Below are positions 22,731 through 40,862 of a DNA stretch of 64,000 nucleotides, piece after piece. Origin of the DNA: Falsigemmobacter intermedius (GTDB lineage: Bacteria > Pseudomonadota > Alphaproteobacteria > Rhodobacterales > Rhodobacteraceae); the NCBI RefSeq assembly GCF_004054105.1, contig NZ_SBLC01000006.1:1-64000 (forward strand), read 5' to 3'. The translations under genes and the position numbers were made by a program. Numbering within the stretch: the first letter of the stretch is position 1; every line of letters starts with the position of its first letter. Under the pieces are notes generated by a model that saw only the letters and a list, made by a program, of their open reading frames with translations, ran no database searches and was not told the DNA's origin.

Positions 22731-23312
22731 ATGTTTGAAGACGATCTGGGACGCTTGATTTATCTGGTGCTTCTGCTTGGCGCCCTGGGCGGATGGGCGC
22801 TGGTTGAATCGCGCGGCCGTTTTGGTCAGTTCACCCGCCAGGCGCTGGCCTGGCTGATGATCTTCGGCGCGATGGCCGCCGGTTACGGCCTTTACAAAGA
22901 CATGGGGTTCGGCAGCCAGCAGACCCTGGTCAGCGATGCAGGTCTGCCCCGGCTGGAGCTGAAGCGCAGCGGGGACGGGCATTATTATCTGGCCCTCGCG
23001 GTGGATGGCGTGCCTTTGCGCTTTATGGTGGATACCGGCGCCAGCAGCATCGTGCTCTCAGATCGTGACACCGATCGGCTGAACATTGACCGCACGAAAC
23101 TGGCTTATCTGGGTCAGGCGCGCACCGCCAATGGCACTATCCGCACCGCTCAGGTGACCCTGCGCAACGTCACCCTTGAGGGGCAGCCGATGGGGGATCT
23201 TCAGGCCTCGGTCGGGGACGGGCCTTTGGGGGTGTCGCTTCTGGGCATGGATTTCCTTAACCGCTTCTCAAAGGTTGAGATTGCCCGCGACAGGCTGATC
23301 CTGACGCCCTGA
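22731..23312 (+). CDS. Membrane-anchored retropepsin-like aspartic protease (TIGR02281 type)
   Basis: The 193-residue protein has two N-terminal membrane segments (about 8-25 and 38-55). A soluble retropepsin-fold domain follows, with the active-site motif FMVDTGASS (Asp101), a GQARTANG flap-like region and LLGMDFLNRF near the end. Single-Asp proteases of this kind act as dimers. The substrate is unknown. GGGAAGG precedes the ATG. Confidence 0.8.
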   Translation: MFEDDLGRLIYLVLLLGALGGWALVESRGRFGQFTRQALAWLMIFGAMAAGYGLYKDMGFGSQQTLVSDAGLPRLELKRSGDGHYYLALAVDGVPLRFMVDTGASSIVLSDRDTDRLNIDRTKLAYLGQARTANGTIRTAQVTLRNVTLEGQPMGDLQASVGDGPLGVSLLGMDFLNRFSKVEIARDRLILTP

Positions 23313-23332
23313 CGGGGCTGTGACTTGATCAC

Positions 23333-23369
23333 GTTCGTGAAATGTTCCAGACATGTTCCATGTCTGAAC
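23333..23369 (+). promoter_or_regulatory. Array of LexA-type half-sites (GTTC-N7 x3, GAAC)
   Basis: GTTC occurs at 23333, 23344 and 23355 and GAAC at 23366, each separated by exactly 7 bases. GTTC-N7-GTTC is the SOS operator known from Rhodobacter and other alphaproteobacteria. Two overlapping such sites plus a palindromic GTTC-N7-GAAC lie across the start of the radical SAM gene, which points to LexA repression. The periodic spacing makes chance unlikely. Confidence 0.75.
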
Positions 23370-24448
23370 CGGATCCGACCCTGCCATCTCATCTGCGACT
23401 GCGTGCGCGCGGAACTGCGTCCAACGCCGCGGGGCGCTTTGAGCGTGAAACGCGCGAGCGTTTTGACGATGGCTGGGATCTGACAGAGGAAGAGCGCCTG
23501 CTGCGCACCGAGGTGCGGGAGGAGGTGCCTCGCTCAGCCCTTACCTATAACCGCTCGCCCGATCTGCCCTTTGACCGCTCGGTCAATCCCTATCGGGGGT
23601 GCGAGCATGGCTGCGTCTATTGTTTTGCCCGGCCCAGCCATGCCTTTCTGGGGCTTTCCCCGGGGCTTGATTTTGAGACCCGGCTGATCGCGCGGCCAGG
23701 CATTGCCGATGTGCTGGCGCGGGAACTGCGGGCGAAATCCTATCAGCCGGGCGTCATCGCTTTGGGCACGAATACCGATCCCTATCAGCCTGTCGAGGCA
23801 CGCTACGGGTTGATGCGGCAGATTTTGCAGGTGCTCTGCGATCATCATCATCCCGTGGCCGTTACGACCAAAGGAACCTTGGTTGAGCGCGATATTGATC
23901 TGCTCTCGGTCATGGCCGCGCGGGTGCAGGCGGGGGTGGGCGTCTCGCTGACCACGCTCGACCCCGATCTCGCGCGGCGGATGGAGCCGCGCTGCCCCTC
24001 TCCCGCGCGGCGGCTGCAGACCATCCGCAGGCTGGCCGATGCCGGGATCCCGGTGCGGGTGATGATCTCGCCACTGGTGCCGGGGCTGAGCGATCATGAG
24101 GCGGAGGCGATCTTAGAGGCGGCCTATGAGGCCGGGGCGCGGCGCGCGACCTGCATTCCGCTGCGTCTGCCGCGAGAGGTCTCGGGGCTCTTTCAGGCCT
24201 GGCTGAGCCATCACTACCCTGACCGTGCGGCGCATGTGATGAACCGGGTGCGGGAGATGCACGGCGGGCGTGATTACGACCCCGACTTCGGCCGCAGGAT
24301 GCGCGGGCAGGGGCTTTGGGCGGATCTGCTGAAGGCGCGGATCAATGTTGCCTTAACCCGGCTGGGCTATGACCGGAGCCCGATCCCGCTGAGCCTTGAG
24401 GGGTTTCGCCTGCCCTCACGACCCGGCGATCAGCTGAGCCTGTTTTAG
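23360..24448 (+). CDS. SPL-like radical SAM protein (PA0069 / Rv2578c type)
   Basis: The 362-residue protein has the radical SAM cluster motif RGCEHGCVYCFARPSH (Cys81, Cys85, Cys88). It also has RGTASNAAGRFE near the N-terminus and the PYQPVE and TKGTLVERD segments typical of the PA0069 family. This family is often labelled a DNA repair photolyase because of distant likeness to spore photoproduct lyase; no member's substrate is known to me. In-frame ATGs at 23342 and 23351 also exist, and all lie within the LexA-like array, so the true start is uncertain. Confidence 0.82.
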   Translation: MSEPDPTLPSHLRLRARGTASNAAGRFERETRERFDDGWDLTEEERLLRTEVREEVPRSALTYNRSPDLPFDRSVNPYRGCEHGCVYCFARPSHAFLGLSPGLDFETRLIARPGIADVLARELRAKSYQPGVIALGTNTDPYQPVEARYGLMRQILQVLCDHHHPVAVTTKGTLVERDIDLLSVMAARVQAGVGVSLTTLDPDLARRMEPRCPSPARRLQTIRRLADAGIPVRVMISPLVPGLSDHEAEAILEAAYEAGARRATCIPLRLPREVSGLFQAWLSHHYPDRAAHVMNRVREMHGGRDYDPDFGRRMRGQGLWADLLKARINVALTRLGYDRSPIPLSLEGFRLPSRPGDQLSLF

Positions 24449-39597: not shown

Positions 39598-40488
39598 TTA
39601 GCGCTGCACCCCGGGGGGCAGGGCGCGGATGGCCTTCAGGATCAGCTGCCGGATGGGGCCCAGGGCCGCGTCCGACCAGATCATGCGCCGCCCCTTATGA
39701 TCCACGATCAATGCGCCTTCGGGGGCCGCCAGCAGGGCCTCGGGTTTCACTGCGTCACCGGGCAGGGTGATCGCGGTCAGCCCGGCGCGTCTGCGCCGCA
39801 CCCAGGGCAGCGCGCCAAGTGCGCGGCTCGCCCAGGTCCAGGGCAGCATGAACTCGGTGGGCATCTTTACCGCAAGACGGCCGGGGATTTCACGGATAAC
39901 ATCCTGCGCGGCCCAGCTGATAAAGCGCTCATCCGCCCGCATCGGATGAAAGGTGCAGTCCGGCCAGTCTTTCAAAAGCGCCTGAAAGCGCGCGGCGATA
40001 TAAGCGGTTTCTGCGGGGTGAAACACCACCAGCGAGGAATTGCCCCGCGCATAGCGCCGCCCCTTTGTCAGCCGGAAGGCCAGTCGCCCCGGCCAGCCAA
40101 AGCGCAGCGGCGTGCTGCGAAAGAGCGCGACCGTCTGCGGCGTTTCCATCAGATCGATCAAGGCCGCCGGATCTTTCAGAAACAGCGTGTCGAGATCGCT
40201 GAAAAGCGCGGGCATATCCGTCGGGATCAGACCTTCGGTAAACATCGCAAGCTTGGCCTGGCAGCCGGAGCGCAGGAGCTGCGGCAAAAGCCAGCCCTCA
40301 GGGAAGGGGCGTTGCAGAACAGGTTCCGGCAGTCCGTCGCGCGGGCGGTCGGTGATGACCACCACCCGTGCAAGGCTCGGTGAGAGGGCGCGGGCCGCAA
40401 GAATGATGCGGCTGAGGTCACCGCCGCCGTATTTGGTGCCCCAGACAATCAGGACAAGTTGCCAGGGACGGGCTGGGGGCCTGTTCAT
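39598..40488 (-). CDS. Putative glycosyltransferase-like protein
   Basis: The 296-residue protein (start ATG 40488) has a Rossmann-like beginning (WQLVLIVWGTKYGGGDLSR, then ARVVVITDRP) and the acidic FSDLDTLFL, which resembles the DXD nucleotide-sugar site of GT-A transferases. An aromatic, basic C-terminal half follows, with a DERFISW motif. That makes it a likely sugar transferase acting on an envelope polysaccharide or glycolipid. The donor, acceptor and family are not clear to me. It is a lone gene between tRNA-Leu and the fba gene. Confidence 0.6.
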   Translation of the reverse strand: MNRPPARPWQLVLIVWGTKYGGGDLSRIILAARALSPSLARVVVITDRPRDGLPEPVLQRPFPEGWLLPQLLRSGCQAKLAMFTEGLIPTDMPALFSDLDTLFLKDPAALIDLMETPQTVALFRSTPLRFGWPGRLAFRLTKGRRYARGNSSLVVFHPAETAYIAARFQALLKDWPDCTFHPMRADERFISWAAQDVIREIPGRLAVKMPTEFMLPWTWASRALGALPWVRRRRAGLTAITLPGDAVKPEALLAAPEGALIVDHKGRRMIWSDAALGPIRQLILKAIRALPPGVQR

Positions 40489-40862
40489 TACGCGCTCCGG
40501 AACATCACACGAACTGACTCTCACCTAGACCTCATCTCTGTAAAACGCCATGGGGCAGCGCGCTGCGAGCGGTTCTGTTTGCGGGATGGTCTCATCTTCG
40601 GTCGCACCCATCTGCGCCTCTTCAGGGGGCAGATGCCCTGGGCGGGCAGTCCGCTGTCCTATTGATGCGACCATCTTTTCCACGCGGCGGCGGCAATCTG
40701 CTGCGGGGCTGTTTCGTGCCCGCACCGGCTTCCGTTTTCATTGGCCCTGAGCAGGGCTTCGCTCTGTGACAGAGATGTTAACGCAATCATCATAGACAGA
40801 GGGAGCGGTGCACCCTAAAGGGAGCGCAGACCTCATCCTCCCCCCAAGATCAGGGATCCGAC
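40489..40862. other. Intergenic region before the aldolase gene
   Basis: No convincing gene in 374 bases; short frames on both strands lack ribosome sites and family features. It contains a hairpin CATCTGC...GCAGATG near 40609-40635 of unknown role. The divergent promoters for the glycosyltransferase-like gene and for the aldolase must lie here, the latter probably near 40770-40800. Confidence 0.4.

Follow-up and report, generated by a model that had tools for sequence, protein, structure and literature searches.

Could the short repeats at the start of this radical SAM gene be binding sites for LexA, and if so, do they form one operator or an array of overlapping ones? In the window (the whole 64 kb stretch of DNA that was analyzed), GTTC occurs at 23333–23336, 23344–23347 and 23355–23358, and GAAC occurs at 23366–23369. 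The gap between successive copies is always 7 bases, and the three direct GTTC half-sites repeat with a period of 11 bp. An earlier note had described them as a triple or quadruple array of LexA half-sites spanning the gene start, in which overlapping operators would allow tight or graded control. The motif it relied on, GTTC-N7-GTTC as the alphaproteobacterial SOS operator, matches the one published in a passage of PMC9578287. The features of the locus are as follows.

22731–23312, + strand: co-directional upstream gene for a clan AA aspartic protease (TIGR02281), with its stop codon 47 nt before the start of the radical SAM gene
23325–23330, + strand: −35-like hexamer TTGATC, aligned with TTGCAA of the orthologues
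23333–23347, + strand: box 1, GTTC-N7-GTTC, predicted conserved LexA operator, exact in most orthologous loci
23344–23358, + strand: box 2, an overlapping GTTC-N7-GTTC formed by the third half-site at 23355, most likely fortuitous
23348–23353, + strand: −10-like CAGACA, 17 nt after the −35-like hexamer, a weak copy of the orthologue consensus TAnnnT
23360–24448, + strand: PA0069-family radical SAM gene, 362 aa (NF033668, PF04055), with a start supported by orthologues
23366–23369, + strand: GAAC, part of the codons GAA CCG (Glu-Pro) and opposite in orientation to the direct repeat; no operator half-site

The start of the gene and the half-sites around it

The start best supported by the orthologues is the ATG at 23360, 12 nt past box 1. 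An alternative start at ATG 23342, inside box 1, is disfavored, as the orthologues begin at the position equivalent to 23360. Box 1 is therefore entirely upstream of the coding sequence, and only the third half-site reaches the ATG. The four half-sites at 7-base gaps are thus present as described in the earlier note, but box 1 does not span the gene start. A quadruple array was ruled out, since the GAAC copy is inverted relative to the other three and codes for part of the N-terminus MSEPD (codons GAA-CC). A homologue search found one such radical SAM gene in the organism's own genome.

Conservation of box 1 and its promoter setting

To what extent is box 1 kept at the same position in other genomes? 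The search of the family returned a match to the radical SAM gene in 219 of 295 genomes, from which we assembled a family set of 70 loci including the focal one (the 30 best matches and 40 picked by hand from the matches listed). A named set comprised the best 80 loci among the matches listed, nearly all of which are alphaproteobacterial. Some loci are shared between the two sets (e.g., the contigs of L072 and L138 are both 188,342 bases long); therefore, their counts were not pooled as independent. In each locus, the target region ran from 200 bases upstream to 25 bases downstream of the expected start. An exact GTTC-N7-GTTC was found there on either strand in 66 of 70 family loci and in 70 of 80 named loci; on the coding strand, the counts were 65 of 70 and 65 of 80, with 1 and 5 more loci carrying the box on the other strand only. 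As a control, the same loci contained 138 boxes in 33,900 bp of target region compared with 8 in 356,740 bp elsewhere.

The four family loci that lack an exact box (L070, L077, L113 and L133) all have a one-mismatch version, as do 6 of the 10 such named loci; the other named loci, L168, L196, L199 and L205, have not even a one-mismatch box. L070 (genome G234) belongs to another species of the same genus and keeps the gene, with the inexact site GTTC-N7-GTTT. The earlier note had regarded relatives that keep the gene and lack the motif as evidence against its reading; this is what L070 shows in part, while most orthologues keep the exact box. When scored with a matrix derived from 129 orthologous boxes, box 1 reached 20.3, with only 7 of the 129 scoring lower, which is low but within their range; by its inner bases alone, 25 of the 129 scored lower. 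Separately, the orthologue region of L205 (1001–2086, from a metagenome-assembled genome) contains two in-frame stops as read, which could reflect a frameshift, recoding or a damaged copy.

The position of the box relative to the promoter is also conserved. Across 92 aligned promoters, TTGCAA stands 8 bases before the box, TAnnnT begins at +15 and the ATG is at +27, so that the box fills the 17-nt spacer between the two conserved elements. The −35-like columns showed T in 87%, T in 58%, G in 75% and C in 66% of the promoters, and the −10-like columns from +15 to +20 showed T in 72% and A in 84%, with the last T in 72%. Since a generic sigma-70 scan of 23200–23500 found nothing, the promoter reading for the focal gene rests on this alignment of orthologues. 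Among 136 boxed loci, the nearest downstream in-frame ATG or GTG, which may differ from the true start, was exactly 12 nt away in 55 and 11–15 nt away in 70; it was 23–25 nt away in 25, 0–9 nt away in 24 and elsewhere in the remaining 17. This common layout of box and ATG predicts a transcription start at or near the ATG.

Furthermore, a wider search, in which 173 of 398 genomes matched, allowed us to pick by hand 25 loci from other alphaproteobacterial families and 21 from other classes of the phylum. The exact GTTC-N7-GTTC was present in 22 of the 25, compared with none of the 21. Instead, the E. coli-type LexA site CTGT-N8-ACAG (e.g., CTGTATATATGTACAG) occurred in 14 of the 21 other-class loci (11 of 18 placed by tblastn and 3 of 3 placed by coordinates), and 7 had neither motif in exact form. 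The 18 loci placed by tblastn contained no CTGT-N8-ACAG in the 11,277 bp elsewhere. These results indicate that a LexA-type site has been kept while the operator itself has changed, which strongly supports LexA control. This association is the strongest evidence here and is independent of any single sequence. In the named set, L211, which is labeled Hydrogenophaga, has no GTTC-N7-GTTC and carries CTGTATCTGTGTACAG just before the start, in agreement with the other classes.

Does the focal genome have an SOS regulon to which the gene could belong? It encodes LexA (TIGR00498, 195.4 bits), and exact boxes lie near lexA, uvrA, a Y-family polymerase gene, a PcrA/UvrD-like helicase gene and a deoxyribodipyrimidine-photolyase-like gene. 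Another exact box (L061:1543–1557) stands upstream of a second radical SAM gene, rSAM_link_UDG (TIGR03916, 592 bits). Several of the 20 genes next to boxes that we scanned against Pfam were unrelated to repair. The scan suggested in the earlier note thus found exact sites at uvrA, lexA and most orthologues; at recA, the 560 bases read contained no exact box and only one-mismatch versions, including GTTT-N7-GTTC upstream on the minus strand.

Taken together, the conserved box and the CTGT-N8-ACAG site in other classes strongly support LexA (SOS) control of the radical SAM gene, as the earlier note had proposed. Box 1 is very probably a single alphaproteobacterial LexA operator located in the promoter spacer of a PA0069/SplB-type radical SAM gene. 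Some observations count against this reading: the inexact site at L070, the lack of an exact box at recA, the poor −10-like element and the low box 1 score of the focal copy, the 7 of 21 other-class loci without either motif and the four named loci (L168, L196, L199 and L205) without a one-mismatch box. From the comparisons, we infer that LexA bound to box 1 would block RNA polymerase. Upon DNA damage, RecA-stimulated self-cleavage of LexA would free the promoter, and the enzyme, which probably acts in DNA repair, would be induced. Transcription would probably start at, or a few bases from, the ATG at 23360, so that the mRNA would have no leader or almost none. The third half-site and the GAAC would be coincidental, or at most make an accessory contact.

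The third half-site

Could the third half-site nevertheless turn the locus into an array? In such an array, two LexA dimers, placed on the same face of the helix by the 11-bp spacing, would bind the three direct half-sites cooperatively, repressing more tightly than one dimer and with the possibility of graded control, and they would extend over the promoter as far as the start codon. The triple pattern, although picked out by eye, is exact and occurs once in the window compared with 0 in 100 shuffles of it. When the 70 exact pairs of the focal genome were ranked by the orthologue matrix, box 1 was 8th and box 2 was still 10th. Furthermore, 294 genomes contained 212 triples compared with 133 matches to the reversed control pattern, and 14 of 30 triple loci that we fetched had the triple upstream of lexA, at distances of some tens to about 245 bases. 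Genome G023 was set aside from these counts; it had 46 matches to the triple pattern and 0 to the control, presumably because of a repeat element. The lexA triples (L221, L222, L225, L226, L228, L234, L236, L237, L239–L243 and L246) lie on the strand opposite lexA. The excess over the control and the recurrence at lexA suggest that triple arrays are probably real in this bacterial family, but at lexA.

On the other hand, at the orthologues of the radical SAM gene the triple was found in the focal copy only, among the loci examined. A third GTTC in register occurred at 0 of the 136 other boxes, compared with about 1.4 expected by chance (a GTTC rate of 0.0051 per position, on two sides), and the relative from the same genus lacks it. 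The sequence of box 2 is atypical as well: its whole score of 16.4 is above only 1 of the 129 orthologous boxes, its C at inner position 8 occurs in 0 of the 129, and all 129 exceed it in inner-base score. The overlapping operators suggested in the earlier note, and the tight or graded control that they would provide, are therefore not borne out, and the pattern fits chance. In Caulobacter, the passages of PMC12700426 report that early and late SOS genes cannot be told apart by the sequence of the LexA box, and the title of that paper attributes the order of the SOS response to intrinsic promoter strength, which makes it less likely that additional operator copies would set a graded timing. 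We conclude that the array at the radical SAM gene is most likely fortuitous, and a cooperative or graded array at this promoter seems quite improbable.

A triple array was also observed at the start of a deoxyribodipyrimidine-photolyase-like gene (L022:1501–1526), and nearly identical arrays recur in other genomes, one of them confirmed at phr (L244). The L022 array was not counted as independent, because its last half-sites encode the N-terminus MDVLVWF.

The broader idea that the focal promoter has two working operators, as a cooperative array of the kind found at lexA or as a stage in operator turnover, is unlikely in our estimate. Five Ruegeria loci (L140, L144, L150, L155 and L164) and L101 carry an inverted box, GAAC-N7-GAAC, and Ruegeria marisrubri (L152) carries both the usual and the inverted box, as if in the middle of operator turnover. 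With both orientations in L152 and only the inverted one in the five Ruegeria loci, LexA control may persist while operators are gained, flipped and lost.

Could the half-sites have arisen by chance, with no role for LexA? Exact pairs are not rare: the reversed control pattern has 28 matches in the genome, and the window contains 3 GTTC-N7-GTTC pairs compared with 1.24 expected (at least 3 in 9 of 100 shuffles), so that the pair is only mildly over-represented. However, the whole genome has 70 exact pairs compared with the 28 reversed controls, which suggests that many exact pairs are probably genuine sites; above all, the conservation of the same position across the class, and its replacement by CTGT-N8-ACAG in other classes, make chance alone a very poor explanation of box 1. 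Elsewhere in the window, an exact pair at 40500–40514 on the minus strand lies 11 nt upstream of the ATG at 40488 of a minus-strand ORF (39598–40488); this ORF had no NCBIfam match, and a longer ORF there had no Pfam match at 1e-8. Just as hard to credit is an RNA hairpin at the start codon, in which the arms of the inverted repeat CAGACATG-TTC-CATGTCTG would pair and make the AUG inaccessible in transcripts that read through. The sequence does contain this 8-bp stem, the core of which is also present in the predicted fold, but we ruled the hairpin out because the fold is no better than that of shuffled sequences (z = 0.77; 155 of 200 at least as stable) and a perfect stem of at least 8 bp at the expected start occurs in only 3 of 150 loci including the focal one, and it would be absent from a leaderless mRNA.

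The enzyme and its place in the SOS response

What might an operator of this kind control? The protein scored 463.5 bits against NCBIfam NF033668 (cut-off 360), which places it in the PA0069 family, and it matched Pfam PF04055. Its CxxxCxxC cluster motif (C81, C85 and C88) is invariant across 26 sequences. The closest solved fold to its predicted structure is that of spore photoproduct lyase (SPL; PDB 4fhc), also a radical SAM enzyme, with a TM score of 0.51, an rmsd of 7.1 and 13% identity, for a model with a mean pLDDT of 74.1 and poor quality around the cluster loop. The five NCBIfam families matched at E up to 0.001 included no SPL model, and no SPL chain was among the 14 matches of a PDB sequence search at E up to 1. 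The only matches of that search, UVR8 and NifB chains at E 0.0037 and above, were regarded as spurious.

In SPL, a cysteine beyond those of the cluster acts as the hydrogen donor, and C140 is the residue mutated in the SPL structures. No fourth conserved cysteine was found in the 26 sequences (at most 10 of the 26 have Cys in any other column), so that only the three cluster cysteines are conserved and C140 has no conserved counterpart. Because of this, and because no SPL family model matched, the SPL label is a lead about the fold, and photoproduct-lyase activity is unproven.

PA0069 belongs to the LexA regulon of P. aeruginosa. Our literature search pairing PA0069 or Rv2578c with LexA found nothing, and the passages found on PA0069 did not deal with its regulation. 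A link between LexA and an SPL-like gene, by which the earlier note would place this poorly understood family in the DNA-damage response, was already predicted in 2012: according to passages of PMC3323433, the SPL-homologous splB is under predicted LexA control in both alpha- and betaproteobacteria, under differing LexA motifs. The legend of Figure 4 in that paper names Rhodobacter sphaeroides and Paracoccus denitrificans among the species compared. That splB shares the class of LexA motif and the homology to SPL with the focal gene, and it is probably exactly this orthologue; the focal copy has the extra overlapping half-site. Passages of PMC8565304 place SplB (COG1533) in LexA-like networks of Bacteroidetes, and in passages of PMC7739468 the LexA networks of Gram-positives and Balneolaeota include a radical SAM protein that is given no name. 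In both cases, SplB or a radical SAM gene is among the conserved LexA targets under different LexA motifs; however, the phyla and operators are others. LexA sites have also been predicted in Dinoroseobacter shibae, in passages of PMC6473078 that do not name the radical SAM gene.

The focal site is a predicted LexA operator of an ordinary kind, well supported, in front of a gene from a family already known as part of the SOS response. What it offers is a radical SAM family of unproven chemistry tied to the DNA-damage response by dense comparative evidence. As the same gene is found under GTTC-N7-GTTC and under CTGT-N8-ACAG, damage-inducible repair would be the first hypothesis for the enzymology of the PA0069 family.
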